A stretch of DNA of 64,000 bases from Calorimonas adulescens (GCF_008274215.1 NZ_VTPS01000003.1:62001-126000), one strand, 5' to 3'. Counted from the first letter of the stretch, positions 29,747 through 57,517 are shown. A program made the numbers and translations. The notes: a model not told the origin generated them from the sequence alone.

Positions 29747-30466
29747 ATGGAGATCGACAAGAAAAGTCCTATACCTATTTATTTTCAACTTAAAAATATT
29801 ATAAAAGACGACATAGAGAGCGGAGTATTGAAACCAGGTTCAATAATACCATCTGAAAGGGAATATTCTGAGAAGTACGGCATAAGCCGCATGACTGTAA
29901 GACAGGCCTTAAAGGAACTGGAAGACGATGGCCTTATCATCAGGGAAAGAGGACGGGGGAGCTTTGTGGCCAGGCCAAAGATTGAACAGAAAAATATAAT
30001 GAGCTTTACAGAGATGGTAAAGAACATGGGCATGGTACCATCGACAACAGTGATAGACCTCAAGAGGACTGTGGTAGGCAACCTACATAACAGGTTTATG
30101 CTTGATGAGCAGGAGGGGTTGTTTGAAATTACCCGATTGAGGTGTGCAAATAATGTTCCTGTGGCTATAGAGTCGGACTATATACCTGAAAGGTATGCTC
30201 CGGGAATTGACGAAAAAGACCTGACTGGCTCGCTGTACCGGTTGTTGAGAGAGGAATACAACATAGAGGTAACCTGTTCAAGTGCAGGTTTTGAGGCTGT
30301 TATGAGTGACTCGTATCTGGAGAAGATTTTGGAGACAGATGGCTGTATACCGCTCCTAAAGGTAGAAAGCGTCAACATATCGGATAAGCCAGTGTTTTAT
30401 GAGGTTTCATTCTACCGTTCTGATACATTCAAATATGTTGTAAATATTTACAGGGATGGGAGGTAG
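29747..30466 (+). CDS. GntR/HutC-subfamily regulator of amino-sugar genes (NagR/DasR-like)
   Basis: The 239-residue protein has a winged-helix DNA-binding domain ([20 protein letters not shown], about residues 33-52) followed by a UTRA ligand domain. This is the HutC subfamily. Lying directly before nagB, and with a dre-like site in its promoter, it is probably the NagR/DasR-type repressor that responds to GlcN-6-P or GlcNAc-6-P. The start at 29747 follows AAGGTGGTG; an upstream in-frame reading from 29630 would cross the promoter. nagB starts 7 bases after its stop. Confidence 0.88.
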
Positions 30467-30473
30467 TATTATA

Positions 30474-31217
30474 ATGAAGACAGTTATAGAAGAGACCTAT
30501 GAAGAGATGAGCAGGACTGCAGCCAGGATGGTGGCAGAAGAGATAAGAAGAAAACCCAGCCTGGTGCTTGGCCTGGCCACAGGGGGGACACCACTGGGGA
30601 TGTATAAAGAGCTTATAAGGATGCACAGGGAAGAGGGTCTGGACTTTTCGGAGGTCATTACATTTAACTTAGATGAATACTATGGTCTTTCTCCCGAGGA
30701 TGAACATAGCTATCACTACTACATGCATGAGAACTTCTTTAAGCATATAAACATAAAGCCGGAGAATATACACATACCCAGTGGTACAGCCACGGACATT
30801 GACAAATTTTGTGAAGAGTATGACAAGGAAATCCAGAGGGTGGGGGGAATAGACCTCCAGGTACTCGGCATAGGCAGAAACGGACACATAGGCTTTAACG
30901 AGCCGGGAGATGAGCTGATTACTGAGACTCATGTCACAATACTCACAGAGGAGACAAGGATGGCCAATGCCAGATTTTTTGGCAATCTAAACAATGTCCC
31001 TCAAAAAGCGGTTACCATGGGATTGGGTACAATAATGAAGGCAAAAAAAATACTGCTCCTCGCCAGTGGCAGGGAAAAAGCTGTAATCATGGCAGAACTT
31101 TTGAGTGACACCAGCGTAACTACCAGAGTGCCAGCATCATTCCTACACCTTCATCCAGACACAACAGTGATAATAGACAGGGAGGCTGCAATGGAACTGC
31201 TGGCAAAAAAATCATAG
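30474..31217 (+). CDS. nagB: glucosamine-6-phosphate deaminase
   Basis: The 247-residue protein carries [12 protein letters not shown] near residue 35, FNLDEYYGL near 67 and [14 protein letters not shown] near 135, the signature set of NagB. It converts glucosamine-6-phosphate to fructose-6-phosphate and ammonia. This is the shared exit to glycolysis for GlcNAc, chitobiose and MurNAc products made by other genes in this window. GGAGGTAG sets the start at 30474. It is co-transcribed with the GntR regulator. Confidence 0.96.
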
Positions 31218-31593: not shown

Positions 31594-33249
31594 ATGAGGG
31601 GCATAAAAGCTTCACCTGGTATTGCCATTGGCCAGGCCTATCTTCTTCAAAAGGATATTAAGATAGAAAAGGCCACTGTAGAGGATAGGAAGAAAGAGCT
31701 CGCAAGATTGGATGAAGCCATAGCCGCGTCCATCGGGCAATTAAAAAGGATCATGGATAAGGTCGCTAAGGAAATGGGCGAAAACGCTGCAACTATTTTT
31801 GATGCACATATAATGATCCTGGAAGACCCTGAGTTTATACCAGAGATAAGGTCGTATATAGAGAAGGAAGGGACCAGTGCGGAATATGCGGTGGCTGAAG
31901 TAGTAAAAAAATATGCAGAAATGTTTGATGCAATGAAAGACACATATCTTAAGGAACGCGCTGCAGATATAAAAGATGTCGGGAACAGGATAATATCAAA
32001 TCTGCGTGGACAGATATACGACCTCTCAGAAATTCCCAATGGTACCATTGTTGTTGCAAGGGACCTCAGTCCGTCAGACACCGCCCAAATGGATAAGTCA
32101 AAGGTTGAGGCTTTCTTGACAGATGAGGGTGGTAAGACCTCTCATACGGCTATTATGGCCAGGACGATGGAAATACCTGCTGTGGTTGGACTTGGCGATG
32201 TCACCCATCAGGTAAAAGACGGCGACATTGTTATTGTGGATGGCAATGAGGGAGAGGTCTATTTAAACCCTGACAATGACACCCTCAGTTTATACATGAA
32301 AAAAAAGGAAGAATACGAGGAGTATAAGGAAAAGCTCAAGAGCCTTACCACACTCCCGGCACTTACCAGAGATGGGAGAAAGGTGGAGCTGGAAGCAAAC
32401 ATAGGTACTCCCAAGGATGTTGAGGCAGCTCTTTCCAACGGTGCAGAGGGGATAGGACTTTTCAGGACAGAGTTTCTTTATATGGACAGGAACAACCTGC
32501 CCACTGAGGATGAACAGTTTGAGGCATATAAGAAAGTTGTCACGTCGATGGGTTGCAAAAGGGTGACCATAAGGACTCTGGATATCGGCGGAGATAAAGA
32601 CATACCATACCTTGGCCTTGAAAAAGAAGAAAACCCATTCCTTGGTTGGAGGGCTATAAGGTTTTGTTTAGATAGGCCTGAGATATTCAAAACTCAGCTC
32701 AGGGCCATATTGAGGGCCAGCGCCTATGGCAAGGTAAGCATAATGTATCCTATGATATCCGATATAGAAGAGGTAAGGAAGGCCAATAAGTTGCTGGAAG
32801 AAGCCAAAAGTGAGCTCAGGAGCAATGGTATACCGTATGACCTCAACATTGAGGTGGGTATAATGGTAGAAATCCCATCCGCTGCCCTCACAGCCGATAT
32901 ACTGGCCCGCGAGGTGGACTTCTTTAGCATAGGCACTAATGACCTTACACAATATACCCTGGCGGTGGACAGGGGTAACCAGAGGGTAAGGGGCTATTAT
33001 AACTACTTCCAGCCCGGCGTATTGAGGCTCATAAAGTACTGTATAGAACAGGCCCACAAACATGGCATATACACAGCTATGTGCGGTGAGATGGCTGGTG
33101 ACCCGGAAGCCACAAAGATACTTTTGGGACTGGGACTGGATGTATTCAGCATGAGCGCCTCATCTATACCACTGGTAAAAGATGTCATAAGGAATACTAC
33201 CATGGAAGAAGCCAGGGCATTAGCGGAGAAGGCATTAATGAATGGATAG
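31594..33249 (+). CDS. ptsI: PTS enzyme I (phosphoenolpyruvate-protein phosphotransferase)
   Basis: The 551-residue protein has the phosphohistidine segment DEGGKTSHTAIMAR near residue 180. It has EGIGLFRTEFLYMDR and, near residue 440, SIGTNDLTQYTLAVDR and GEMAGDP, the PEP-binding part. The length is slightly short of the usual 570 but complete. It takes phosphate from PEP to HPr. It forms a ptsHI operon placed among five PTS permease loci. Confidence 0.97.
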   Translation: MRGIKASPGIAIGQAYLLQKDIKIEKATVEDRKKELARLDEAIAASIGQLKRIMDKVAKEMGENAATIFDAHIMILEDPEFIPEIRSYIEKEGTSAEYAVAEVVKKYAEMFDAMKDTYLKERAADIKDVGNRIISNLRGQIYDLSEIPNGTIVVARDLSPSDTAQMDKSKVEAFLTDEGGKTSHTAIMARTMEIPAVVGLGDVTHQVKDGDIVIVDGNEGEVYLNPDNDTLSLYMKKKEEYEEYKEKLKSLTTLPALTRDGRKVELEANIGTPKDVEAALSNGAEGIGLFRTEFLYMDRNNLPTEDEQFEAYKKVVTSMGCKRVTIRTLDIGGDKDIPYLGLEKEENPFLGWRAIRFCLDRPEIFKTQLRAILRASAYGKVSIMYPMISDIEEVRKANKLLEEAKSELRSNGIPYDLNIEVGIMVEIPSAALTADILAREVDFFSIGTNDLTQYTLAVDRGNQRVRGYYNYFQPGVLRLIKYCIEQAHKHGIYTAMCGEMAGDPEATKILLGLGLDVFSMSASSIPLVKDVIRNTTMEEARALAEKALMNG

Positions 33250-35479: not shown

Positions 35480-36607
35480 ATGTTTGCCATAACCAATGGT
35501 AGGGTTATTGCTGGAAGCCAGATTGTGGATAGTGTTGTAATCGTAGATAAGGACAGGATAGTAGACCTCAGGGACGCTGTCCCCGTGGGTATTAGGAGAG
35601 TAGATGCCAGGGGAATGTACGTTTCACCGGGGTTTATAGAGATCCATATGCACGGGAGGAATGGTTATGACACCATGGATGCCAGCTTTGATGCAATAAA
35701 TGGGCTTTCTAAGGCTCTTATTGCGAGTGGTGTGACAGGTTTTCTTGCTACCACCATGACCATGCCCGGGGAAAATATCAAAAGGGCGGTAAGGACTGTG
35801 GGTGAATCCATGGGTAAGGTGGAGGGGGCAAGGCTACTTGGGCTTCACATGGAGGGACCTTTTATATCTAAAGAGCATAAGGGGGCTCAGCCTGAAGATT
35901 ATATAAAGATGCCGTCAATGGATGAGTTTATGAGCCTGTGTGATGGGTTTGACAGCATTGTAAAGCTTATTACTGTTGCACCTGAGACAGATGGGGCAGT
36001 AGAATTTATAAGAAAATTAGCTAATATGGGTACAGTGATATCCATGGGCCATACCAATGCTACCTATGATGAGGCCATGAAGGGAATAAAGGCAGGTGCA
36101 AAGAGCTCTACGCATACTTTTAATGGTATGAGGGGATTTCACCACAGGGAGCCGGGAGCCCTTGGGGCTGTATTTGACAGTGACATATTTGCTGAGTTTA
36201 TCTGTGATGGTGTACATGTCCATTTTGCTGCATTACGTACACTTCTTAAGATAAAGGGCGTAGAGAGGTCAATACTTGTCACAGACTCTATGAGGGCGGC
36301 TGGCCTTGCCGATGGGGTATATGATCTGGGCGGGCAGCAGGTTTTTGTGAAAAGTGGCCAGGCCAGGCTTGCTGACGGGACTATTGCAGGCAGCACGCTT
36401 ACCCTGGATGCTGCTGTGCATAATGCAGTAGAACATCTTGGTGTCACCATACCAGAGGCCGTCCGCATGGCGTCATATAACCCGGCAAAACTCCTGGGGC
36501 TTAATGATATGGGAGAGATAAAGAAGGGGAATATGGCGGACATAATATTTTTCGATGAAGACATAAACATAAAAGGGATGTTTATAGCAGGGGATAGAGT
36601 ATTCTAA
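35480..36607 (+). CDS. nagA: N-acetylglucosamine-6-phosphate deacetylase
   Basis: The 375-residue amidohydrolase has IEIHMHGRNGYDTMDA near residue 55. It has LHMEGPFISKEHKGAQ near 125, MGHTNATYDEA near 190, THTFNGMRGFHHREPG near 212 and VTDSMRAAG near 268, all matching NagA. It removes acetate from GlcNAc-6-P to give GlcN-6-P for NagB. GGGGGGATAAAT precedes the start. The antiterminator gene begins 44 bases after its stop. Confidence 0.95.
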   Translation: MFAITNGRVIAGSQIVDSVVIVDKDRIVDLRDAVPVGIRRVDARGMYVSPGFIEIHMHGRNGYDTMDASFDAINGLSKALIASGVTGFLATTMTMPGENIKRAVRTVGESMGKVEGARLLGLHMEGPFISKEHKGAQPEDYIKMPSMDEFMSLCDGFDSIVKLITVAPETDGAVEFIRKLANMGTVISMGHTNATYDEAMKGIKAGAKSSTHTFNGMRGFHHREPGALGAVFDSDIFAEFICDGVHVHFAALRTLLKIKGVERSILVTDSMRAAGLADGVYDLGGQQVFVKSGQARLADGTIAGSTLTLDAAVHNAVEHLGVTIPEAVRMASYNPAKLLGLNDMGEIKKGNMADIIFFDEDINIKGMFIAGDRVF

Positions 36608-37471: not shown

Positions 37472-40201
37472 ATGCTTAGGAAGGAAAAAGTTTATAGACT
37501 TCTCTATGATGAGTGCAGCAGGATAAAGACAAAGGACATAAAGGACGATGTGGGGTTTTCGGCTGAATACATAGCCTCAAAGCTGAATTTGACAAGGAAT
37601 AACGTCTCGGCGGATTTAAATGCCCTGTACAGAGAGGGCAGGGTATATAAGATAGAGGGAAGGCCGACACTTTATCTTACCAGGGATTGGGCAGATGAAC
37701 ATGGAATCACAGGCAGCAAACCTAAGAGTGAGAGGTCTGCAAATACCATCAATATGGACATTTTTAGCGACATGGTGGGTCATGACGGCAGCCTCCTCCC
37801 GTATATAAAACAGGCACAGGCAGCTATGCTCTATCCTCCGAAGGGCCTGGCCACACTCCTCCTGGGAGAAACCGGGGTAGGAAAGACCACATTTGCAGAG
37901 CATATGTACCTTTTTGCCAGGGCCAATGGAGTCATAAAGGAAGACGCACCCTACGTTGTCTTTAACTGTGCTGACTACTCCAATAACCCTCAGCTTTTAA
38001 TGTCCATACTGTTTGGGAGTGCAAAGGGTGCGTACACCGGGAGTGATGTTGACAGGGTAGGGCTTGTAGAAAAGGCTGGCGGGGGGATATTATTTTTGGA
38101 TGAGGTGCACAGGCTGCCTCCTGAAGGCCAGGAAATGCTGTTTAACATAATAGACAGGGGACTTTACAGGAGGCTTGGTGAGGTGAGCGAGAGGAAGGCT
38201 GATATCATCATAATTGCTGCCACAACCCGGGACCCCAGGTCTGCCCTCCTGGAGACATTTTTAAGACGTTTTCCTATAATGATAAAACTTCCTTCCCTTA
38301 AGGAAAGGGGCCTTGCAGAAAAACTGGAGATCATATCTGACTTTTTTAATAAAGAGGCTGAGCGGGTAAAAAGACCCATTAAGGTGGCTCGGGATGTTAT
38401 GCTCTCACTGCTATTATATAAGCCATCAGGAAATGTGGGTGAACTGAAGTCGGACATAGAGCGCATATCATCCAGGGGGTACTTGGACTACCTTATAAAC
38501 CAGGATGAGATGAGGATAACCTTAAGCCATCTCCCAGAGAATATAAGGGAGGCAATATTGACTCCAGGGGATGAAAAGAGGTCCGCTGAAAAGCTCTTAA
38601 AGTATGGGGATTATGTGTTTGATGGGGCGTCTTTTGAGAGGCAGAAAAGCGAAAGAGACCCATATGATTTTTCTATGGAGGTATATGAATATCTGGATGA
38701 AAAGAGCAGGGAATACAGGGGAAATGGGCTATCAAAGGGAGAGATGACCGACAGGCTCTTAAAAGACCTGGAAGAGGTATTCTTAAGATACAGGGAAGGC
38801 ATATTATCTATAGGTATAAAAGAGCAGGAACTTGCCAGATTTTTAAGTGCAGACATAATAAGCAGCGTAAAGGTACTCTCTGAAGAGGTGTTGAAGAAAT
38901 TTAATTACCACATCAAGGAGGATACTTTGATAGCCTTAGCCTTTCACATAAACTCCATGTTTGTGAGGAAAAATAAGGTAAACCCCATAAACCTCGATGA
39001 CATCAAGAGTGGACATCCAGTGGAGTATGGGGTGGCCTCTTACATGGTGGAGCGGTTAAAGAGCCTTTTAAAGAGGGATATACCAACCTATGAGGCCGGG
39101 TTTATAAGCATGATACTCTACCTTACCAATGGGGAAGAGAGACCCAAAAAGATAGGGGTAATGGTTATAGCTCACGGGGAAGGGACTGCCACCGGCATGG
39201 CGGATGTGGCAAACAAGCTCTTGAGGACTGACCATGTGAAGGCCATAGACATGAGCTTAGATGACAACCCCGAAGATATTTTAGAGAGGGCAATCGGCCT
39301 AGCCAAGGACATAGATGAAGGCAAAGGGATACTTTTAATGGTAGACATGGGCTCACTTAAGGTGTTCGGGGAGGAAATAGAGAAGCGCACAGGGATAAAC
39401 ACCATCACCATAGACAATGTAAGCACCCCTGCGCTCATAGAGGCTGCCCACAGGTCCATGCTACCCTATTCTACGCTGCGCGATGTAGCAAGGGCTGTAC
39501 TGGATTTAACCAGGAATTTAATAGCTGCGACATCGAAAGAGGTAAACGGGAGTACACAGAGGGAAAGGGTGATATTTACCGTCTGCAGTACAGGGGAAGG
39601 GACAGCCATGTACCTTAAGGAGGTAATAGAAAGGGCCCTCAAGAAGAACAACATAGAGGGTGTAGATGTAATAGAAATCAATATAAGTGACAGGAAAAAA
39701 GCAGTAGAAAACATGAAAAGGATTGCTGCAGGACGCCAAATAGCAGCCATTGCCGGCAGCATCAACCCGGAAATGCCCGGGGTTCCATTTATAAACTTGA
39801 TGGAGTTTGTCACCGGAAATGGCCTGGAAAGGGTTTTAAGGCTTATCTCCGGCAGTACTCAACTCAGGGCAGATATAAAGGATGAAGACAGGACAGTGGT
39901 CTATGGGGCGATCATGGATGCCCTTGATGAAAATCTGAACTTCTTATCAGGGAAAAAACTCATGCCATTTCTTGACAAGTATGCCAGGATGATTGAGAAG
40001 GAGAAGGATATTAAGCTGGATAACCACAAATACACGCTGTTTACTATGCATATGGCATATGCCATAGAGAGGTTCAAATTTGCGAGCAGGGTTGTAGAAG
40101 GTGCACTGCCACCAGATCCTCTTATAAGAACAGTATATGAGGATTTTGGTGTAACTCTGGAAAGTGATGAATTAAAAATAATTGAGGAAATTATAAAATA
40201 G
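37472..40201 (+). CDS. LevR-type sigma-54 activator with PRDs and EIIA/EIIB-like domains
   Basis: The 909-residue protein has an N-terminal helix-turn-helix (SKLNLTRNNVSADLN, about 36-50). An AAA+ domain follows with Walker A GETGVGKT (132-139), the sigma-54 contact loop GAYTGS (186-191) and Walker B ILFLDEVHRL. Next come PRD1, an EIIA-Man-like domain (VMVIAHGEGTATG, about 565), an EIIB-like domain (VIFTVCSTGEGTA) and PRD2. This is the LevR layout, phosphorylated by PTS proteins. It should drive the -24/-12 promoter at 40876 for the mannose-family PTS. GGAGG sits across the stop of the preceding antiterminator gene, so the two are coupled. Confidence 0.93.
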   Translation: MLRKEKVYRLLYDECSRIKTKDIKDDVGFSAEYIASKLNLTRNNVSADLNALYREGRVYKIEGRPTLYLTRDWADEHGITGSKPKSERSANTINMDIFSDMVGHDGSLLPYIKQAQAAMLYPPKGLATLLLGETGVGKTTFAEHMYLFARANGVIKEDAPYVVFNCADYSNNPQLLMSILFGSAKGAYTGSDVDRVGLVEKAGGGILFLDEVHRLPPEGQEMLFNIIDRGLYRRLGEVSERKADIIIIAATTRDPRSALLETFLRRFPIMIKLPSLKERGLAEKLEIISDFFNKEAERVKRPIKVARDVMLSLLLYKPSGNVGELKSDIERISSRGYLDYLINQDEMRITLSHLPENIREAILTPGDEKRSAEKLLKYGDYVFDGASFERQKSERDPYDFSMEVYEYLDEKSREYRGNGLSKGEMTDRLLKDLEEVFLRYREGILSIGIKEQELARFLSADIISSVKVLSEEVLKKFNYHIKEDTLIALAFHINSMFVRKNKVNPINLDDIKSGHPVEYGVASYMVERLKSLLKRDIPTYEAGFISMILYLTNGEERPKKIGVMVIAHGEGTATGMADVANKLLRTDHVKAIDMSLDDNPEDILERAIGLAKDIDEGKGILLMVDMGSLKVFGEEIEKRTGINTITIDNVSTPALIEAAHRSMLPYSTLRDVARAVLDLTRNLIAATSKEVNGSTQRERVIFTVCSTGEGTAMYLKEVIERALKKNNIEGVDVIEINISDRKKAVENMKRIAAGRQIAAIAGSINPEMPGVPFINLMEFVTGNGLERVLRLISGSTQLRADIKDEDRTVVYGAIMDALDENLNFLSGKKLMPFLDKYARMIEKEKDIKLDNHKYTLFTMHMAYAIERFKFASRVVEGALPPDPLIRTVYEDFGVTLESDELKIIEEIIK

Positions 40202-40265: not shown

Positions 40266-40763
40266 ATGGAAAACTATAGCAGTCTTGACTTAATCACCAT
40301 AGCCATAGAAATGGAAGACAAGGGTAATGCTTTTTATAAAAAAGCTGCCGCAAAACTTGAAGATGGAGAGGCAAGATCCATATTCTTGAGATTGTCAGAT
40401 GAAGAATTAAAGCACAAAGAAAGGTTTAAGGAACTTCAGTCTGTAGCCATAGACGAGATGGCAGGTGACAAATCAGCTGACTTTTTTGATATGGAGGCCA
40501 GCAAGTATATTGATGATCTCGTACATGCATCTGTATTTCCAGAGGACGAGGACATAGATAAGGTCCTGGAGGGCATCAGGGAGCCCCTTGATGCTATAAA
40601 CATGGCATTGGACCTGGAGAAAGATTCTATCCTGCTGTATCAGGCGCTCTCTGAGGGCACAAAGAACAGAAACACCAGGGAGACGGTCCTGAGCATAATA
40701 ATTGAGGAGAGAAAGCATATCTCACTCTTAAATTCAATTAAGCTCAACTATCGTAATATATAA
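40266..40763 (+). CDS. ferritin-like (rubrerythrin-type) di-iron protein
   Basis: The 165-residue protein is all-helical with paired metal-ligand patterns of the ferritin-like fold: EMEDKGNAFYKKAA near residue 14, DEELKHKERF near 45, DLEKDSILLYQAL near 118 and EERKHISLL near 150. It lacks the CxxC rubredoxin module of full rubrerythrin. Such small proteins handle peroxide or iron. It lies between a LevR-type activator and its probable PTS target, an odd place. GGGAGGG precedes the start. Confidence 0.82.
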   Translation: MENYSSLDLITIAIEMEDKGNAFYKKAAAKLEDGEARSIFLRLSDEELKHKERFKELQSVAIDEMAGDKSADFFDMEASKYIDDLVHASVFPEDEDIDKVLEGIREPLDAINMALDLEKDSILLYQALSEGTKNRNTRETVLSIIIEERKHISLLNSIKLNYRNI

Positions 40764-40849
40764 TAGTGTCTTATTGGGTATTATTGTTATCCCATATTTA
40801 TATGGATGAGTATTGCACTGTATTAGATGGTATATGAGACCCTGTAAAT

Positions 40850-40920
40850 AGGCCTTTTGTGAGGGAAACCAAACCTGGCATGATTTTTGCTACATAGTCT
40901 GGTGCCCTCACAAAAGGCCT
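40850..40920. repeat. 16-bp perfect inverted repeat enclosing the sigma-54 promoter
   Basis: AGGCCTTTTGTGAGGG (40850-40865) and CCCTCACAAAAGGCCT (40905-40920) are exact reverse complements 39 bases apart. The -24/-12 promoter lies in the interval, and the predicted start site falls just before the right arm. It could be a long-loop terminator for the upstream gene (TTATATTTT follows) or a paired operator. Confidence 0.8.
40876..40895 (+). promoter_or_regulatory. sigma-54 (-24/-12) promoter of the mannose-family PTS operon
   Basis: TGGCATGATTTTTGCTACAT has the sigma-54 form: GG and GC exactly 10 bases apart and the TTGCT -12 box. It differs by one base from the promoter at 57498. The operon's first gene begins 56 bases after the GC element, and a LevR-type activator is encoded upstream. 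Confidence 0.9.
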
Positions 40921-40950
40921 TTATATTTTCTAAGTCAGGAGGTGCAGCTT

Positions 40951-41367
40951 TTGAAGAAAACGGCATTAATTTTAATAAGCCATGGCAGGATGGCTGAGGA
41001 AACACTGAAAAGTGCGGAGATGATTGTCGGCAATATCGATAGTGCATACGCAGTATCAATGGATGCAAAGGATGGAGCTGAGGGCCTAAAGAAAAAGATA
41101 AAGGAGGTGATGGATGAGGTAAAGGGTTATAGCAATATAATAGTAATGGTGGACCTTATTGGCGGGACACCATCCAATGTGGCGACTACAGAACTCTTCA
41201 AGAATGAGAAAGTAAAACTCATAAGCGGGTTTAATCTGGGAATGGTTCTGGAGTTTGCCACCTCTTATATCGATGATGCCGAAGAGCTTAAAGATCACCT
41301 TGTAGAGGTGGGCAAAAGCGGTATCAAAGATGTCTTTAAAGAAATTGCAGGCATTATGAAAAATTAA
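40951..41367 (+). CDS. PTS mannose-family EIIA component
   Basis: The 138-residue protein begins KKTALILISHGRMAEETLKSA, with the phosphorylated histidine in ISHG as in EIIA-Man. VMVDLIGGTPSNVATTEL near residue 70 is also family-typical. TTG at 40951 is chosen as start because AGGAGG lies 8 bases before it; GTG 40942 overlaps that site. It is first in the sigma-54-driven operon EIIA-EIIC-EIID-EIIB-serine hydrolase-murQ. Confidence 0.9.
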   Translation: MKKTALILISHGRMAEETLKSAEMIVGNIDSAYAVSMDAKDGAEGLKKKIKEVMDEVKGYSNIIVMVDLIGGTPSNVATTELFKNEKVKLISGFNLGMVLEFATSYIDDAEELKDHLVEVGKSGIKDVFKEIAGIMKN

Positions 41368-41381
41368 AAGGAGGGGAATTT

Positions 41382-42149
41382 ATGGAAATTGCATTCTGGC
41401 AAATACTATTTTTGACGGTATATGCCTTCGTTGCACAGCTTGATGCTTTAAGCCTTCAGATTTCACTGGGTAATCCTTTGATGGCCGGTTTTGTTACAGG
41501 ACTTATAATGGGTAACATTCCAATGGGCCTTACAGTGGGTGCTACGCTACAGTTAATGGTGCTGGGTGTGGCCACATATGGAGGCGCTACAGTACCGGAC
41601 TTTATGTCGGCAGCAGTTATAGGGACTGCATTTGCGATAATATCAGGGCAGGATGTGGAGTTTGCTATAGGGATTGCCTTACCTATAGGGCTTTTACTCA
41701 CGCAGCTGGATATACTGGCCAGGCTATCCAACACATATTTCCAGCATAGGGCTGACAGGTATGCTGAAGATGGAAATGCAGATGGAGTGGCCAGAATGAA
41801 CCTTATGGGAATAATACCATGGGGCCTTAGCCGTGCCATTCCTGTGTTTTTGGGGCTGTATTTCGGAAGTGAAGTTGTCAAGGCTATCACAGCATATCTG
41901 CCACAGTGGCTCATGGGTGGCCTTAAGGTTGCAGGTGGTATCCTCCCTGCCATGGGTGTTGCAATACTGATGAGGTATCTACCTCTAAAGAAGTTTTATC
42001 CCTTTATGATTATCGGCTTCGTACTGGCAGCATATTTAAAGGTAAGTCTGATAGGTATAGCATTGATTGGATTTGCGGTTGCGGCTGCCTACCTGTTCTT
42101 AAAGAATGAATTAAAGCCTCAGACAGAAGGAGGAGATATCGATGACTGA
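41382..42149 (+). CDS. PTS mannose/sorbose-family EIIC component
   Basis: The 255-residue protein is highly hydrophobic with the EIIC-Man opening QLDALSLQISLGNPLMAG and the segment MGLTVGATLQLMVLG near residue 50. It forms the sugar channel with EIID. AAAGGAGGGG precedes the ATG. The EIID gene starts within its last 8 bases. Confidence 0.93.
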   Translation: MEIAFWQILFLTVYAFVAQLDALSLQISLGNPLMAGFVTGLIMGNIPMGLTVGATLQLMVLGVATYGGATVPDFMSAAVIGTAFAIISGQDVEFAIGIALPIGLLLTQLDILARLSNTYFQHRADRYAEDGNADGVARMNLMGIIPWGLSRAIPVFLGLYFGSEVVKAITAYLPQWLMGGLKVAGGILPAMGVAILMRYLPLKKFYPFMIIGFVLAAYLKVSLIGIALIGFAVAAAYLFLKNELKPQTEGGDIDD

Positions 42150-42951
42150 TGCAAAGGTGGAGAAAAAGGTTACAAAAAGAGACCTGCTTTCTGTATTCTG
42201 GAGGACAATACTGGGGCTTCAGATGGGATGGAACTACGAAAAGATGCAGGGCCTTGGGTACTGCTTCGCTATAATGCCAATACTGAAAAAACTTTATAAG
42301 AGCAAGGAAGAGATGACAAAAGCTTTGAAACTGCATCTGCAGTTCTTTAATACAACCCCTGCCATGGCTCACCTTATTGTGGGTGCCGATATAGCTATAG
42401 AAGAGGAATACGGCCTGGCCAATGAGGACACAATAAGCGGTATTAAGACAGGTCTTATGGGACCATTTGCAGGTATAGGAGATACTGTATTTGTTGCTAT
42501 ATACAGAACAATTGTATTCAGTGTGGCATCCTATATGGCACTGCAGGGGAATGTAATAGGTGCTCTAATTCCTGTTATACCGGCCATAGCCATATGGTGG
42601 GTAAGGTATGAGTTTACGGTAATAGGTTATGAACAGGGCAGAAGGATAGCTGTAGGATTTGCCAACCAATTGAAACAGCTCACAGAAGGTGCTGCCATAC
42701 TGGGGCTTACGGTTATAGGTGGCCTGGCCCCGGCGGTTGTAAAGGCCAATGTCCCGCTGGTGTTCAAAAGCGGTGAGGTAGAGCTAAAAGTCCAGGATAT
42801 GCTAAACAACATTATGCCATCTATGGTGCCAATGGCGATAGTATTGCTGTCATACTGGCTTTTAGGCCGTAAAGGTTTTAACTCTACAAAACTTATTATA
42901 TTCCTTTTGGTACTGGGTGTGGTATTATATAATCTGAAGATATTAGGATAA
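42142..42951 (+). CDS. PTS mannose/sorbose-family EIID component
   Basis: The 269-residue protein begins with VTKRDLLSVFWRTIL and has NYEKMQGLGYCFAIMP and GLMGPFAGIGDTVF, matching EIID-Man. It completes the membrane complex with EIIC. The start overlaps the EIIC gene by 8 bases with GGAGGAG upstream. Confidence 0.93.
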   Translation: MTDAKVEKKVTKRDLLSVFWRTILGLQMGWNYEKMQGLGYCFAIMPILKKLYKSKEEMTKALKLHLQFFNTTPAMAHLIVGADIAIEEEYGLANEDTISGIKTGLMGPFAGIGDTVFVAIYRTIVFSVASYMALQGNVIGALIPVIPAIAIWWVRYEFTVIGYEQGRRIAVGFANQLKQLTEGAAILGLTVIGGLAPAVVKANVPLVFKSGEVELKVQDMLNNIMPSMVPMAIVLLSYWLLGRKGFNSTKLIIFLLVLGVVLYNLKILG

Positions 42952-42968
42952 AACTTGGAGGTTAATTT

Positions 42969-43454
42969 ATGGCAATAATTCATGTTAGAATTGATGAGAG
43001 ACTTATACACGGCCAGGTGGCTACCGTGTGGAGCAATTCACTGGGTGTCACCCGGATAATGGTAGTAAATGACGAGGCTTCAAAAGATGAAATCCAAAAG
43101 AGCGTTTTGAAGATGGCAACACCTCCCGGGATAAAACTCTCTGTCCTTACCGTAGCAGACGCAGCAGAAAGGATAAAGGCAGGTAAGTATGATGCTGACA
43201 GGGTTTTTATGATATTTAAAAATCCGAGGGACTGCCTGAGGCTTATTGAGGCTGGAGTAAATCTGCCTGAGATAAATGTGGGCAATATGGCCCACAAAGA
43301 GGGAGCTACACAGGTAAAGAAATCTGTCAATGTCACTAAAGAAGATGTAGAGATATTTAAAAAACTTGATTCAATGGGCATAAAGATGACAGCAAGGATG
43401 ATTCCAGATGAACCGGCAAATAATTTTATGGATCTCATAAGGGGCTTGATATAA
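42969..43454 (+). CDS. PTS mannose/sorbose-family EIIB component
   Basis: The 161-residue protein has the EIIB-Man opening IHVRIDERLIHGQVATVW with the phosphorylated histidine near residue 15, and VGNMAHKEGATQVKKSV later. It passes phosphate from EIIA to the incoming sugar. The gene order A-C-D-B is less common than A-B-C-D. Its stop TAA shares a base with the next gene's ATG. Confidence 0.93.
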   Translation: MAIIHVRIDERLIHGQVATVWSNSLGVTRIMVVNDEASKDEIQKSVLKMATPPGIKLSVLTVADAAERIKAGKYDADRVFMIFKNPRDCLRLIEAGVNLPEINVGNMAHKEGATQVKKSVNVTKEDVEIFKKLDSMGIKMTARMIPDEPANNFMDLIRGLI

Positions 43455-44506
43455 TGCTGAATGCAGACAGAGTCAATTATCTCAGGGATTTCCTTGCAAA
43501 ATGCATGGCTGAGGGGGCTTTTCCTGGTGCCTGTTTTGGCATAGTGTCTGTGGATGAGTCCTATTCTGGATTCATGGGGAATGCACAGGTAGAACCAATA
43601 AAAAGGGAAATGAGGGGGGACAGTGTATTTGACCTGGCCTCCCTTACTAAGGTTATAGCTACCACCACCTCTATCATGATTTTAATAGAGAATGGAGAAA
43701 TCGGGTTATATGACAGGATTAAAAGCATTTTACCGGGATATAGATACGAAGATACTACAATATTTCAGCTTCTGACCCATACATCAGGCCTGCCTGCTGA
43801 GATAAAGTTTTACCGTATGTGCAGAAATTATGAGGAGGTCATAGACAGGCTATATGATGTGGAGCTTGAATATAAGCCGGGGGAGAAGGTCTTATACTCC
43901 GACCTGGGGTTTATGCTTCTGGGCCTTGTTGTAGAAAAAGTGGCAGAGCCGATATATAAATTTGCCAATATGTATGTCTTTGAACCCATGGGGATGTTTG
44001 ATACGTGTTATAACCCTCCAGAGGAATTAAAAAAGAGATGCGCTGCCACGGAATATAGTGAGGATAGGGGTATGATTGTAGGGGAAGTACATGACGGCAA
44101 CGCATATATAATGGGAGGCGCAAGCGGCCATGCAGGACTCTTTTCTACTGTCCCCGACCTGATGAGATTTGTTGAAATGATATTAAATGACGGATACTAT
44201 AAAGGGAAGAGGATACTTGGCAGAGCGGCTATTGATGCGATGGGCAGATGCTATACCGAGGGCCTGAATGAGAGGCGTGGTCTGGGATGGGAGCTAAAGA
44301 CACCTGGCCACTCCATGGGAGACCTTGTATCAGATAATGTACTTTATCACACAGGTTTTACAGGAACATCCATACTCATAGACAGACAGTATGGCCTAGG
44401 CTTTGTCCTTTTGACTAACAGGGTACATCCCACAAGAGAAAACCAAAAGCTCATTCCCTTGAGAGGATATATAAACAACATAGCAATGACTACAATTTTA
44501 AAATAA
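43454..44506 (+). CDS. serine hydrolase, beta-lactamase/class C PBP-like
   Basis: The 350-residue protein has the class C pattern: SLTK (the SxxK motif) in DLASLTKVIATTT near residue 64, YSD near residue 149 in place of YxN, and HTG near residue 298 in place of KTG. QLLTHTSGLPAE is also typical. No signal peptide is visible, so it probably acts in the cytoplasm. Relatives near murQ are often assigned to cell-wall fragment processing. It overlaps the EIIB gene by 1 base and murQ follows after 15 bases, so it belongs to the same operon. Confidence 0.88.
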   Translation: MLNADRVNYLRDFLAKCMAEGAFPGACFGIVSVDESYSGFMGNAQVEPIKREMRGDSVFDLASLTKVIATTTSIMILIENGEIGLYDRIKSILPGYRYEDTTIFQLLTHTSGLPAEIKFYRMCRNYEEVIDRLYDVELEYKPGEKVLYSDLGFMLLGLVVEKVAEPIYKFANMYVFEPMGMFDTCYNPPEELKKRCAATEYSEDRGMIVGEVHDGNAYIMGGASGHAGLFSTVPDLMRFVEMILNDGYYKGKRILGRAAIDAMGRCYTEGLNERRGLGWELKTPGHSMGDLVSDNVLYHTGFTGTSILIDRQYGLGFVLLTNRVHPTRENQKLIPLRGYINNIAMTTILK

Positions 44507-44521
44507 GAAGGGACTGGTATT

Positions 44522-45409
44522 ATGGACCTGGACAGGTTAACCACGGAAGGCAGAAATCCAGATACAATGGACATAGACACACTAGATACCATGGGCATTT
44601 TAAGAAAGATCAATGATGAGGACAAAAAGGTGGCCTTAGCTGTAGAGCAGGAACTGCCATCTATAGCAAAAGCCGTCGATATAATAGTGGAATCCATCAA
44701 AAAAGGCGGGAGGATATTTTATGTAGGTGCAGGTACCAGCGGCAGGCTGGGTGTGCTTGACGCCTCAGAGTGTCCGCCAACATATGGTGTAAGTCCTGAA
44801 CTCTTCCAGGGAGTGATAGCGGGGGGCATTAAGGCTCTCTATTCATCTACGGAGGGGGCAGAGGACGACAGGGAACAAGGGAAAAGGGACCTATCAGAAA
44901 AGGGGCTTAAAGACATAGACGTGACTGTTGGTATTGCTGCCAGTGGTAGGACGCCATATGTCCTCGGTGCCGTTGATTACGCCAGAAGCACAGGCTGCAG
45001 AACCGTAGGCATAGCCTGCAATAAAGACAGTGAACTGGAAAAGATTGTGGACGTCATGATAGCCCCCGAGGTTGGGCCCGAGGTCATTATGGGCTCTACA
45101 CGGATGAAGGCGGGTACAGCACAGAAGTTGGTCTTAAATATGCTCTCCACTGCCTCTATGATAAGGCTTGGCAAGGTGTACACAAACCTCATGGTGGACA
45201 TGAAGGCCAGTAATGAAAAGCTCTTAGCCAGGGCCAGGAGGATAGTAAAGCTGGCCACAGGTGCTCCAGATGAAATTGTTGAAGAGGCATTAGAGGGATC
45301 AGGATATCACTCCAAGACCGCCATATTGATGATCTTAAAGGGCATATCGAGGGAGCAGGCAGAAGAAGAACTCAAAAAAGCAGACGGATTTATTAGGAAG
45401 GCGCTTTAG
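44522..45409 (+). CDS. murQ: N-acetylmuramic acid 6-phosphate etherase
   Basis: The 295-residue SIS-domain protein begins [16 protein letters not shown]. It has [18 protein letters not shown] near residue 68 and [13 protein letters not shown] near residue 195, the MurQ signature. It removes the D-lactyl ether of MurNAc-6-P to give GlcNAc-6-P, which NagA and NagB then process. It is the last gene of the sigma-54-driven PTS operon and ends in a terminator, which makes MurNAc or a MurNAc compound the probable PTS substrate. Confidence 0.96.
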
Positions 45410-45505: not shown

Positions 45506-47602
45506 ATGCAGCTGGATACCCGTTGCATTGACATATTAAATTATCTCCTTGAAACAGACAAGCCGGCTACGACCTCTAAACTGGCTGAAGTCTTTAAGGT
45601 CAGTACCAGGACAATAAGATATGATTTAGACAGGATAGATGACTGGCTGAAGGAGAATAACATTTCACCCGTTGAGAGAAAACCCAATACAGGGGTCTAT
45701 CTTAGAGAAAAGAAATCTATTGCAGACGCCCTATCCTCGATTAACTATTATGAATATGGGCCTGGCCGCCTGGAGAGGGAAGACATACTTAAGGCCCTTA
45801 TCTTAAAGGCTAGGGATGAAATTAAGATAGATGAACTGGCAGAAAAGCTCTATGTCAGCAGGAACACAGTAATAAATGACCTTAAGAATGTAAGGGATTG
45901 GTTTAAAAGGTTTAATATAAATATTAAGCCTACAAAAAATGGTCTTAAAGTAATTGGCAAGGAAAAGGACATAAGGAGGGCAGCAATAGAACTCCTTACC
46001 GATGAAGTGGACACTGCAAAGATTTTAGAATATCTGGAAGGATGGAACTTTGGGCCTGGTGCCGGGAAAGAGATGTCTGATTTCATCTCTGAGGAAGACA
46101 CTAAATTTTTATCAGAGGTCTTAAGGGAGGCAGAAAGAGAACTGGGATACAGACTCTCCGATATGGACTTTTCAGGACTCATACTGCATCTTGCAATTGC
46201 GGTAAAGAGAATAAAGCTGGGAAGGAACATAATGATGCCACATGAAGAAATAAAACAGCTTCAGGTTACCAAGGAATTTGCAGTTGCTTCTCAGATAGCC
46301 AGCTGTATAGAGAGCCACTATGGTATAGAAGTCCCGATAGAGGAAATGGGATATATTACACTCCATCTCCTGGGCAGTAAGTCTACCACGGCAGTAGATA
46401 TAGAAAAGGAAAACTGGCTTGACGTGGAGTTTATGACCTCAGAACTCATAAAAAAGGTAGAAGAAGAGCTGAAGGTAGATCTGGAACATGATGATATTCT
46501 CTTTAAAGGATTAAAGGAACATCTCACACCCACACTCTACAGGATAAAAAATGACCTTCCCGTGAAGAACCCACTGCTGGATGACGTTAAAGCCAACTAC
46601 CCAAAGCTGTTCAAAGCAGTGGAAAAAGCAGTAAAGATAGTGGAAAATTATGCAGGTAAGAGGATTAATGAAGATGAGATTGGCTATATATCATTTCATT
46701 TTGGAGCAGCATTAGAAAGAATGAGGTCCAAAAGGTCCATTAGAGCCGTACTGGTTTGCAGTACGGGGCTTGGTACGGCCAGGCTGCTGGCTACCAGGGT
46801 AATGAATGAGTTTGAAAATATAATTATTGAAGATATCACATCCTATCATGGGCTAAAAGAACTAAAGACAGATGCGGACATTATTATCTCAACAATAAAT
46901 TTAAAAGACACAACACTGCCGTATGTAAGAGTATCACCTATGCTTGCAGAAGAGGATATAGACAGTATAAAAAGAATTTTAAGGGAGATTTATATAAAAC
47001 CTGAACCAATCAATGGCGATAAGCTCGAGCAAGTTATAAAGGCAATAAAACGATACGCCATAGTAACAGACGAAGCGGGGTTAAAAGAAGAATTAAGCAG
47101 GATCATCGCACCAAAAATACCACATTTGATTTCGAGGGAGGTAAGACAACCAGTGTTAAATGACCTTTTAACGGAGAAAACAATCAAACTAAATGTAGAA
47201 GTGGATAACTGGGAGGAGGCAATAAGGGAAGGTGGGAAGCTTTTACTTGAAGCAGGTAAGATAGAAGCAAGATATATTGACGCTATGATAAAGACGGCAA
47301 AGCAGCTCGGGCCATACATCGTTATAGCACCCGGCATAGCTATGCCTCACGCCAGGCCTGAAGATGGAGTAAAGGAGGTGGGGATGAGCCTTATAACACT
47401 AAGGACTCCGGTAAATTTCGGACATCGACAAAATGACCCTGTAAAGATTGTGGTGTGCCTATGCGCAGTAGACAATAACAGCCATATAAAGGCACTATCA
47501 CAACTGGTAAAGTTTTTGAGCAGTGAAGATGTTCAAAGTGTGCTCATTAAGGATATAAATAAAGAAAGAGTCATAGATTATATCATAAAATATTCGTCGT
47601 AG
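45506..47602 (+). CDS. BglG/MtlR-type PTS-controlled activator (ascorbate-type locus)
   Basis: The 698-residue protein has two N-terminal helix-turn-helix units (VSTRTIRYDLDRI near residue 33 and LYVSRNTVINDLKNV near 115). PRD1 and PRD2 follow with histidines in GYITLHLLGS and GYISFHFGAALER. Then come an EIIB-like domain (AVLVCSTGLGTARLLA near 415) and a C-terminal EIIA domain with APGIAMPHARPEDG near 613. Since the locus has no separate EIIA gene, this C-terminal domain might also serve the permease. EIIB and EIIC genes follow at once, so it probably controls them. Confidence 0.9.
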   Translation: MQLDTRCIDILNYLLETDKPATTSKLAEVFKVSTRTIRYDLDRIDDWLKENNISPVERKPNTGVYLREKKSIADALSSINYYEYGPGRLEREDILKALILKARDEIKIDELAEKLYVSRNTVINDLKNVRDWFKRFNINIKPTKNGLKVIGKEKDIRRAAIELLTDEVDTAKILEYLEGWNFGPGAGKEMSDFISEEDTKFLSEVLREAERELGYRLSDMDFSGLILHLAIAVKRIKLGRNIMMPHEEIKQLQVTKEFAVASQIASCIESHYGIEVPIEEMGYITLHLLGSKSTTAVDIEKENWLDVEFMTSELIKKVEEELKVDLEHDDILFKGLKEHLTPTLYRIKNDLPVKNPLLDDVKANYPKLFKAVEKAVKIVENYAGKRINEDEIGYISFHFGAALERMRSKRSIRAVLVCSTGLGTARLLATRVMNEFENIIIEDITSYHGLKELKTDADIIISTINLKDTTLPYVRVSPMLAEEDIDSIKRILREIYIKPEPINGDKLEQVIKAIKRYAIVTDEAGLKEELSRIIAPKIPHLISREVRQPVLNDLLTEKTIKLNVEVDNWEEAIREGGKLLLEAGKIEARYIDAMIKTAKQLGPYIVIAPGIAMPHARPEDGVKEVGMSLITLRTPVNFGHRQNDPVKIVVCLCAVDNNSHIKALSQLVKFLSSEDVQSVLIKDINKERVIDYIIKYSS

Positions 47603-47616
47603 AAGGAGGAGACTAA

Positions 47617-47886
47617 ATGAAGATATTAACAGTATGCGGGTTGGGCCAGGGTACAAGTCTATTGTTAAGAATGAATGTAGAGGAGGTGTTAAATGAATTA
47701 AAAATACAGGCTGAAGTGGATCATATGGATGTCAGCTATGCGGCGTCTGAGAATGCAGAATTAATACTTACATCACCCCAGTTAGCACCCTTGCTGGAAC
47801 GAAACCCGGCGCAAAAAATTATTATCAACAATTACTTTGATAAAAATGAGATTAAAGAAAAGTTAAAAGAATACTTTAATATTTAA
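47617..47886 (+). CDS. PTS ascorbate/galactitol-type EIIB component
   Basis: The 89-residue protein begins MKILTVCGLGQGTSLLLRM, the P-loop-like phosphocysteine motif of small EIIB proteins of the Ula type. It would phosphorylate the sugar moved by the EIIC that follows 17 bases later. AAGGAGGAG precedes the start. Confidence 0.9.
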   Translation: MKILTVCGLGQGTSLLLRMNVEEVLNELKIQAEVDHMDVSYAASENAELILTSPQLAPLLERNPAQKIIINNYFDKNEIKEKLKEYFNI

Positions 47887-47903
47887 ATAAGGGGGAATAG
47901 AAT

Positions 47904-49220
47904 GTGAATACCTTAATTTCAACAGCTCAGTGGTTGGCTGACAACATATTTGGACAGCCTGCATTCTTAATAGGTTTGGTTGCCTTGGTTGGACTCTTAC
48001 TTCAAAATAAGCCAGCATCTGTGGTGGTAAGTGGCACTTTGAAGACCATTTTGGGATTTTTAATAATTAGTGCGGGTTCGGGGGTTCTTACAGGAGCGTT
48101 GGGCATATTTGAGCCAATGTGGAATACCATATTTGGTATAGAGTCACCACCTGTTTTACAGGGGACGCCAGATTTTCTTGCAGAATACGGGAGCATAGTG
48201 GCATTAGTAATGACATTTGGTTTTTTGCTGAATGTATTATTGGCCAGGTTCACGAAATTTAAATATATTTATCTTACAGGCCATATGATGTTCTGGGTAA
48301 CACTGATAACCACAGCAATTTTAGTAGAAGCCATCCCAGGAATTTCAAAAACCGCCTTATTGATAATTGGGAGTTTATTAATGGGTGTGTATTGGACACT
48401 ACAGCCTGCATATACTCAAAAGTTCATGAAAAAAATAACCGGCAACGACCAGATCGCGTTGGGGCATACTTCATCTTCTGTATCTTTTCTGGCTGCGATA
48501 GTTGGAAAATATATTGGCAATCCAGAGCAAAGCACAGAAAAGATAAAATTGCCAAAGGGATTAGACTTTCTAAAGGATTCCAACGTGATTATAACAATAG
48601 TGATGGGTTTACTTTATGCAGTAGGTGCGACTATCATTTATTTGAGGCCAGATTTTGGAACAAATCCTGCAATACAACAGTTAGCTTCTAAGGCAGGCTC
48701 ACAGAACTTTATAATATATGGGTTTTTGCAGGGCTTTCAGTTCGCGGCAGGTATAGCGGTTATCTTATATGGAGTGAGGTTATTTATAGGTGAACTTGTA
48801 CCGGCGTTCAAGGGTATTGCTACAAAAATAGCACCAAATGCAGTTCCAGCTTTGGATTGTCCAGTAGTATTTCCATATGCGCCAACTGCTACAATCATAG
48901 GCTTCTTATCGGCTTTTGTAACAGCTCTGCTATGGCTGGTTGTATTAGGTACCTCAGGAGCACATGCCTTTGTACCAACAATGATAGTAATATTCTTCCA
49001 TGCAGCGACTGCCGGTGTTTTTGGCAATATTACCGGTGGAGTGAGAGGAGCTATAGCAGGTGGTATAATAACATCGACTGTTGTTGCTTTAGGACAGTGG
49101 TGGATGGTAGGTGCATTAGCCCATACTGTACCTGATACGGTTTTGTGGGCGGCAGACTCTGACATGTTTATTTTTGGCTTTATCTTGTCATCAGTAGCAA
49201 AACTATTTGCCGGGATATAA
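47904..49220 (+). CDS. PTS ascorbate-family EIIC component (UlaA/SgaT-like)
   Basis: The 438-residue protein has about 10-11 membrane segments. Family-typical stretches are FGQPAFLIGLVALVGLLLQ at the start, FLIISAGSGVLTGALG near residue 50 and DCPVVFPYAPTATIIGFL near residue 315. GTG at 47904 follows AAGGGGGAA by 8 bases; the nearby ATG runs into TGA. The UlaA family carries ascorbate and related acidic or lactone-like sugars, but the true substrate is unknown. No ula catabolic genes (ulaDEF) accompany it; lactonase-type genes do. Confidence 0.92.
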   Translation: MNTLISTAQWLADNIFGQPAFLIGLVALVGLLLQNKPASVVVSGTLKTILGFLIISAGSGVLTGALGIFEPMWNTIFGIESPPVLQGTPDFLAEYGSIVALVMTFGFLLNVLLARFTKFKYIYLTGHMMFWVTLITTAILVEAIPGISKTALLIIGSLLMGVYWTLQPAYTQKFMKKITGNDQIALGHTSSSVSFLAAIVGKYIGNPEQSTEKIKLPKGLDFLKDSNVIITIVMGLLYAVGATIIYLRPDFGTNPAIQQLASKAGSQNFIIYGFLQGFQFAAGIAVILYGVRLFIGELVPAFKGIATKIAPNAVPALDCPVVFPYAPTATIIGFLSAFVTALLWLVVLGTSGAHAFVPTMIVIFFHAATAGVFGNITGGVRGAIAGGIITSTVVALGQWWMVGALAHTVPDTVLWAADSDMFIFGFILSSVAKLFAGI

Positions 49221-49222
49221 AC

Positions 49223-49248
49223 CTCAAGCCCGTTTTAACGGGCTTGAG
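49223..49248 (+). terminator. hairpin after ascorbate-type EIIC gene
   Basis: CTCAAGCCCGTT (49223-49234) pairs with AACGGGCTTGAG (49237-49248). Only ACATTTT follows, so it may be a weak terminator or processing site inside the operon. Confidence 0.65.
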
Positions 49249-49269
49249 ACATTTTAGGAGGTATGTAAA

Positions 49270-50208
49270 ATGAGGTTTGTAAGGACTATAAAAGGTGATA
49301 TCGACCCATCAAAATTGGGAATAACATATTCACATGAGCATTTATATTCTAAACCACCCTATTGGGTCAGTGGCAAAGATGAAGATCTGGTTGTAGATGA
49401 TACAGCGAAGATTGTTAATGAAATAAAGATGTTCATAGATGCTGGCGGCAATTCCATTATAGAAGGAACTGCAATCGACTATGGGAGAGATGTTTTAAAA
49501 TTAAAAGAAATAGCAGATAACGTTGACATTAATATTGTTTGTACAACAGGTTTTAATAAAGGACTCTATTATGAAAAATGGGTACATGAGATGCCTATGG
49601 AAGAGATGGTTGAACTAATGATAAAAGAAGTCATGGAGGGCTATAAAGATACTGGAATAAAGTGTGGGCAGATTAAAATTGGTACAAGCTATAATACAAT
49701 TACACCAACAGAAGAAAAGGTAATAAGAGCCGCTGCAAAGGCCCAAAATTATACAAAAGCACCTATGTATGCTCATACGGAAATAGGGACTATGGCGTTA
49801 GAACAAATAGAAATATTAAGGCAAGAGGGGATTGACCTGACTCATGTGGCCTTTGGCCATATGGATAGAAATCCTGATATGTGGTATTACCTCAAAATAG
49901 CAGAAACAGGTGCTTACCTTATATTTGATGGTCTTGGAAAAGTAAAGTATTATCCAGAAAGTGTAAGAATAAATTCTATTATAGAACTCTGCAAGAAAGG
50001 CTATCAAAAGAAAATAATGATTTCTGGGGATATGGCAAGGAAGTCATATTATATTGAATATGGTGGTGGGCCTGGCCTAACCTTTATACTAACCAAATGG
50101 GTGCCAAGATTCATAGAAGAGGCGAATTCCCAGGGGTTAAATGGTAAAGAAATAATTGAGGATCTGCTTATAAACAATCCACGTGAATTTTTCAGCTTCA
50201 GGGTGTGA
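49270..50208 (+). CDS. phosphotriesterase-family metal hydrolase, probable sugar-phosphate lactonase
   Basis: The 312-residue protein has the PTE metal-site pattern: YSHEHLYS near residue 20, a lysine in GQIKIGTSY near residue 138, MYAHTEIGT near 168, AFGHMDRNPD near 195 and MISGDMARKSYY near 252. Relatives placed beside Ula-type PTS genes hydrolyse phosphorylated sugar lactones, which fits here. AGGAGG lies 5 bases before the ATG. The stop overlaps an upstream in-frame codon of the creatininase-like gene, so they are coupled. Confidence 0.85.
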   Translation: MRFVRTIKGDIDPSKLGITYSHEHLYSKPPYWVSGKDEDLVVDDTAKIVNEIKMFIDAGGNSIIEGTAIDYGRDVLKLKEIADNVDINIVCTTGFNKGLYYEKWVHEMPMEEMVELMIKEVMEGYKDTGIKCGQIKIGTSYNTITPTEEKVIRAAAKAQNYTKAPMYAHTEIGTMALEQIEILRQEGIDLTHVAFGHMDRNPDMWYYLKIAETGAYLIFDGLGKVKYYPESVRINSIIELCKKGYQKKIMISGDMARKSYYIEYGGGPGLTFILTKWVPRFIEEANSQGLNGKEIIEDLLINNPREFFSFRV

Positions 50209-50213
50209 CACTT

Positions 50214-54642: not shown

Positions 54643-54667
54643 TCATGGAAAGATATAGGGATAGGAT
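54643..54667 (+). repeat. 25-nt direct repeat, copy 2 (orphan SIS gene tail)
   Basis: It matches 51638-51662 at 24 of 25 bases. Here it has no SIS gene in front of it and lies just upstream of the LevR-type gene, where it makes a misleading N-terminal extension (MERYRDRIGF) of that ORF. Confidence 0.85.
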
Positions 54668-54734
54668 TGGGTTTTGGGTTATAATTATAGATAAAGATAT
54701 GTCCTTAAACACTGTGAAAGGAATGGTAGTTTCC

Positions 54735-57497: not shown

Positions 57498-57517
57498 TGG
57501 CATGATTTTTGCTTCAT
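57498..57517 (+). promoter_or_regulatory. sigma-54 (-24/-12) promoter of the chitobiose-type PTS operon
   Basis: TGGCATGATTTTTGCTTCAT has GG and GC 10 bases apart and a TTGCT -12 box. It is identical to the promoter at 40876 except for one base. It lies 38 bases before the EIIC start and directly after the LevR-type activator gene. A small TACAGG/CCTGTA hairpin (57425-57442) precedes it. Confidence 0.9.

Follow-up and report, generated by a model that had tools for sequence, protein, structure and literature searches.

MurP is the phosphotransferase system (PTS) importer of N-acetylmuramic acid (MurNAc) described in model organisms, and MurQ is a cytosolic enzyme whose family is established to cleave MurNAc 6-phosphate (MurNAc-6P) to N-acetylglucosamine 6-phosphate (GlcNAc-6P) and D-lactate. 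Here we compare the operons described around these two proteins with a locus at positions 40951–45409 of a 64,000-nucleotide stretch of DNA, hereafter the window, from Calorimonas adulescens, a heat-loving anaerobic bacterium in which a mannose-type PTS seems to stand in for MurP.

The murR/murQ-murP-yfeW divergon of Escherichia coli resembles the locus in bringing MurQ into one operon with a PTS permease and with a PF00144 hydrolase (YfeW, or PBP4B), but its permease is an enzyme II (EII) of BC type from the glucose superfamily. YfeW and the window hydrolase are 30% identical, with the SxxK, YSD, VHDxxA, GHAGLF and HTGxTG blocks in common. AmiE of Bacillus subtilis is also a PF00144 protein. 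In that organism, murQ-murR-murP-amiE-nagZ-ybbC likewise brings MurQ together with a PTS permease and amiE, the product of which is a MurNAc-L-alanine amidase (PMC5061867); there AmiE and NagZ are extracellular, whereas the window hydrolase is apparently cytoplasmic and its genome has neither a GH3 NagZ nor MurP. The MurP-MupG-MurQ system of Staphylococcus aureus type runs in the sequence proposed here: a MurNAc compound is imported by a PTS, the phosphorylated product is cleaved by a hydrolase inside the cell, and MurQ follows (PMC6262408), but MupG is a glycosidase for MurNAc-6P-GlcNAc, and in the window a serine hydrolase takes its place. It is this arrangement that is displaced in a clostridial genome, G404, discussed below. 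The esu operon of L. casei, in which we know of no murQ, has a PTS of the mannose class. As cited (Yebra et al. 2004, in PMC3162934), that operon combines a LevR-like activator, sigma-54, a PTS and an esterase in one unit, which by description likens it to the window operon, whereas its reported substrate is acetyl sugars.

A mannose-family PTS, a serine hydrolase and murQ in one operon

The genes of the locus, in order, are as follows.

40951..41367, + strand: EIIA, mannose family (PF03610, EIIA-man, 73.4 bits; LISHGR active site)
41382..42149, + strand: EIIC, mannose family (PF03609, EII-Sor, 269.8 bits)
42142..42951, + strand: EIID, mannose family (PF03613, EIID-AGA, 304.4 bits)
42969..43454, + strand: EIIB, mannose family (PF03830, PTSIIB_sorb, 189.3 bits; RIDERLIHGQV active site)
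43454..44506, + strand: serine hydrolase of beta-lactamase fold, AmiE/PBP4B-like (PF00144, 191 bits)
44522..45409, + strand: murQ, MurNAc-6P etherase (TIGR00274, 405 bits against a cut-off of 302)

We read this operon as a likely unit for uptake and catabolism of a MurNAc compound, in which the mannose-family PTS is a non-orthologous replacement of MurP. All four PTS parts and the hydrolase exceed their Pfam gathering cut-offs; each of the four components matches the mannose family, solved mannose IIC chains being matched at 5.6e-31, and the active-site histidine motifs of IIA and IIB are intact. MurQ passes its equivalog cut-off and is encoded once in the genome. A preliminary description of the window had claimed a complete EIIA-EIIC-EIID-EIIB set followed by a hydrolase and murQ, joined by short overlaps, and both the order and the families were verified: the overlap between IIC and IID is 8 nt long, the IIB and hydrolase genes share TAATG, and murQ begins 15 nt downstream of the hydrolase gene. 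The IIA start is taken to be a TTG at 40951 behind an AGGAGG ribosome-binding site, the mechanical call being a GTG at 40942.

The same description had found no murP-like gene in the window and had named, as grounds for abandoning the idea, a murP elsewhere together with proof that this PTS carries another sugar. No MurP is present by our searches of the whole genome (G000; 2.59 Mb, 98.7% complete), in which a hidden Markov model (HMM) of MurP has a single match, to the NagE IIB domain, that falls short of the cut-off. A clostridial MurP used as query has no match in G000, in the second genome of its family (G001) or in G404, and it recovers MurP in G031, G208 and G366. The only glucose-family EIICB upstream of the operon in the window is NagE (33418–34845; TIGR01998, 577.6 bits, above the cut-off), which passes a GlcNAc-specific model and is therefore not needed as the MurNAc carrier, a side activity being possible. 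The PTS_EIIC protein at 57555 was rejected as a MurP since neither the whole-genome model nor the clostridial query matches it. The window PTS itself belongs to a superfamily other than that of the glucose-type EIIBC and is not a MurP, and it may work like one. Of the other known routes, one of MupG type was set aside because the DUF871 proteins of G000 (39%) are encoded within PTS clusters of lactose/cellobiose type, and one through NagZ was ruled out by the absence of a GH3 protein from G000, G001 and G404. The closest named relative is a Thermoanaerobacteraceae metagenome-assembled genome, whose copy of the region is 96.5% identical at the DNA level. We found no earlier report of a mannose-family MurNAc PTS in the literature searched, the coverage of which leaves out most subscription journals.

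Conservation of the gene set and displacement of murP-mupG

A genome search for conserved co-occurrence, which the preliminary description had proposed as a check and the failure of which it would have taken as a refutation, found the link between PTS, hydrolase and murQ in three lineages: the window family (two genomes, including G001), G404 from a different clostridial order of GTDB, and Enterococcus faecalis. Because the same set recurs in other lineages, we regard it as far beyond chance. The order IIA-IIC-IID-IIB-hydrolase-murQ in G404 is that of the window, with identities of 68% for IIA, 88% for IIC, 88% for IID, 81% for IIB, 65% for the hydrolase and 68% for MurQ.

In G404, the block from IIA to the hydrolase is placed between murR and murQ, and in G208 and G366, which belong to the same GTDB family, that slot is filled by murP-mupG. 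The flanking proteins of G404 are close to those of G208 and G366 (92% and 86% identity, respectively, for MurR, and 90% and 86% for MurQ), and a GntR regulator, nagB and nagA precede the locus in G404 as they do in G208. The transporter and the intracellular hydrolase differ together between G404 and its relatives, while the regulator and MurQ stay, and this positional displacement is the strongest and most telling evidence for a role in MurNAc metabolism. MurP and MurR of this family score 299 bits and 209 bits (MurR/RpiR), both under the strict cut-offs, and their identification is supported by 36% and 28% identity, respectively, to the E. coli proteins; MupG was recognized as DUF871-type by reading of the protein, the NCBIfam models giving no match.

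The order in E. faecalis is IIC-IID-IIB, an RpiR/MurR-like regulator, murQ, hydrolase and IIA, with 57%, 59% and 48% identity to the window for IIC, IID and MurQ. The E. faecalis and Listeria sequences were taken from a plasmid collection and look like chromosomal pieces. A tree of IIC, IID and IIB together, which replaced an IIC-only tree that lacked resolution and had one poorly translated row, places the three murQ-linked PTSs in one group (93 by the Shimodaira–Hasegawa-like approximate likelihood ratio test, SH-aLRT, and 91 by ultrafast bootstrap, UFboot). Close relatives outside this group are tied to SIS-domain isomerases, as in a second G404 system and in Listeria, or to beta-galactosidase.

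The second G404 system (L072:6309-14931; IIC 65%) has genes for a LevR-type activator and two isomerases with SIS domains alongside it, together with a hydrolase-like gene that is uncharacterised, and the Listeria locus (L104) has a similar PTS with an SIS isomerase. Plasmids of Lacticaseibacillus paracasei (L110:9470-14296) carry a complete MurNAc operon of the form EIIC-mupG-murQ-murR-EIIA.

The hydrolase

The catalytic residues of the hydrolase are S63-x-x-K66, Y148-S-D and H299-T-G; these columns do not vary in the alignment, in which E. coli YfeW is included, and most of the aligned proteins have the VHDxxA block. No signal peptide was found in the hydrolases of the window, G404 or E. faecalis, whereas YfeW begins with one. 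The PF00144 fold, the intact catalytic residues and the adjacency to murQ are all as in AmiE, but as the signal peptide is missing, and with it the mark of secretion, we call the protein AmiE-like only. Nor can it be counted as a PBP4B, since, besides this lack, it scores 153.6 bits with NF002968 against a cut-off of 385.

In a phylum sample of 398 genomes, the hydrolase occurs in 38, of which 15 have murQ no more than 5 kb away from it; a scan of the collection with the hydrolase as query gave two loci only. Neighbours at many hydrolase-murQ loci resemble NamZ/YbbC, NagZ, an AnmK-like kinase and an ABC transporter, labels that come from reading and not from a scan. Three other clostridial genomes (G410, G262 and G316) encode MurQ and the hydrolase as one continuous protein, in open reading frames of about 690–725 amino acids.

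L056:8344-10491, - strand: MurQ-hydrolase fusion
L060:4293-6467, - strand: MurQ-hydrolase fusion
L042: MurQ-hydrolase fusion

Since MurQ is cytosolic, a hydrolase fused to it has to act within the cell in these genomes, and the fusions tie the enzyme both to the cytoplasm and to the MurNAc pathway. The earlier suggestion that the hydrolase is cytoplasmic and acts after import on a MurNAc compound thus gains support from two sides, the missing signal peptide and the fusions. An amidase acting on MurNAc- or MurNAc-6P-peptides would be the most economical reading of its function, favoured by the example of B. subtilis AmiE, which shares the gene neighbour and is such an amidase; an esterase is possible.

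Proposed pathway and alternative explanations

We consider transport of a MurNAc compound by the PTS quite likely; the presence of an amino acid or peptide on that compound is put forward more tentatively, at slightly less than even odds. In the pathway that we propose, extracellular peptidoglycan fragments would yield MurNAc, most likely still with L-Ala or a short peptide. EIIC and EIID would import it and EIIA and EIIB phosphorylate it at C6, as suggested by the mechanism of the family and by the need of MurQ for MurNAc-6P. The cytoplasmic hydrolase would then cleave off the amino acid or peptide attached to the lactyl group, or else an ester, to leave MurNAc-6P, a step that we infer because of the relationship to AmiE and PBP4B, the missing signal peptide and the fusions to MurQ. 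MurQ would convert the product to GlcNAc-6P and D-lactate, from which NagA and NagB would lead to fructose 6-phosphate. The position phosphorylated and the bond cut by the hydrolase are both predictions. A mannose-family PTS for muropeptides, importing and phosphorylating MurNAc with L-Ala or a peptide that is cut off in the cytoplasm, is thus a serious possibility, if not quite a probable one, and peptide removal might, with the same reserve, come after import and not before it.

NagA and NagB, which had been noted as nearby, are both encoded upstream in the window, as is the general PTS enzyme I.

30456..31217, + strand: nagB, downstream catabolic step (TIGR00502, above the cut-off)
31594..33249, + strand: ptsI, general PTS enzyme I (TIGR01417, above the cut-off)
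35480..36607, + strand: nagA, downstream catabolic step (TIGR00221, above the cut-off)

The PTS could instead import free MurNAc only, in the manner of MurP, with the hydrolase trimming other peptidoglycan fragments, taken up by a separate route. In E. coli and B. subtilis, MurP does carry MurNAc (PMC5061867), and the linkage of hydrolase and murQ without any PTS in the loci with ABC transporters means that the hydrolase does not depend on import by a PTS. However, the hydrolase gene overlaps or directly abuts that of IIB in the window and in G404, and PTS and hydrolase together occupy the murP-mupG slot, so we hold this alternative to be possible and on balance doubtful. We think it unlikely that the hydrolase is a sugar esterase like that of the L. 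casei esu operon, serving the import of O-acylated MurNAc such as acetylated MurNAc or a lactyl ester. Many esterases belong to PF00144, the regulation of the window operon matches (a LevR-like activator and sigma-54), and esu is cited as EsuR-controlled and linked to uptake and hydrolysis of acetyl sugars (PMC3162934); yet the nearest named model and the synteny of the hydrolase indicate peptidoglycan enzymes of PBP4B/AmiE type, and a 6-O-acyl group would block phosphorylation at C6.

Several observations weigh against the operon being a MurNAc unit. The best named model for the hydrolase, PBP4B, scores far below its cut-off, and PF00144 spans esterases and DD-peptidases, so that the reaction cannot be read from the sequence. 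The E. faecalis hydrolase is just 34% identical to that of the window, and the clade of murQ-linked PTSs is moderately supported in the tree. Finally, mannose-family PTSs of the wider clade are neighboured by genes for SIS isomerases, NagA-like deacetylases and beta-galactosidase, and they probably serve other amino sugars. The window PTS might accordingly carry another amino sugar, with murQ and the hydrolase along for general recycling, but this seems very improbable to us: murQ and the hydrolase are kept with the PTS in three lineages, in two of them with a MurR-like regulator as well; the exchange for murP-mupG in G404 would be difficult to account for on this view; and if the PTS is discounted, G000, G001 and G404 have no known MurNAc importer.

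If a mannose-family PTS does replace MurP in this operon, MurNAc and peptidoglycan recycling would extend to bacteria judged import-deficient for want of murP, and mannose-family PTSs, which double as bacteriocin receptors (PMC11403280), would gain a new class of substrate. The hydrolase would be a cytoplasmic counterpart to AmiE and PBP4B, and would perhaps hint at the role of the enzyme encoded in the murQP operon of E. coli. The idea of a MurNAc PTS can be put to the test, as related gene sets occur in a distant relative among the clostridia and in E. faecalis, which is tractable in the laboratory.

Regulation and neighbouring genes

Three features lie upstream of the operon.

37472..40201, + strand: LevR-type PRD sigma-54 activator, likely operon regulator (Sigma54_activat, PRD, EIIA-man and PTS_IIB domains)
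40845..40925, no strand: inverted repeat with 21-nt arms (90%), enclosing the sigma-54 promoter and conserved in G001
40876..40891, + strand: sigma-54 -24/-12 element TGGCATGATTTTTGCT, with one mismatch to TGGCACN5TTGCW, 60 bp before the IIA start

The activator has the GAYTGS loop and scores 515 bits with the DagR model, under the cut-off. The pattern TGGCA-N6/7-TTGCW has two matches only in the window, at 40876 and, as an identical 16-mer, at 57498, and RpoN is encoded in the genome; the PRD-AAA activator, -24/-12 promoter and RpoN of a LevR/sigma-54 operon are all present. The adjacent activator, with sigma-54, probably turns on transcription of the operon, a role that would fall to the neighbouring MurR in G404, judging from gene position and sites. 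No murR adjoins the window operon; one is present in G404, and a MurR-like gene in E. faecalis. The same module appears to be under sigma-54 control in the window genome and beside a MurR-type regulator in the other two. A GAAA-N5-TTTC palindrome stands upstream of IIA in G404 and of murP in G366, the chance expectation for TGAAA-N5-TTTCA being 0.06–0.07 per locus (0.07 per 18 kb), and the E. faecalis promoter region has two copies of a shorter core, as read directly from the sequence. These palindromes are putative MurR sites. The inverted repeat may terminate transcription of the upstream gene or serve as a site for a regulator.

A rubrerythrin/ferritin-like gene (40266–40763) separates the LevR-type gene from the PTS operon. 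The second sigma-54 element (57498–57513) lies upstream of a PTS EIIC gene (57555–58823) and a YdjC-like gene, beside a second LevR-type activator (54645–57398). The operon that follows murQ (45506–51672) encodes a PRD activator with EIIA, a UlaB-like IIB, an ascorbate-type EIIC, a phosphotriesterase-like lactonase, a creatininase-family amidohydrolase and an SIS sugar isomerase, and its substrate is perhaps an amino-sugar acid or lactam.

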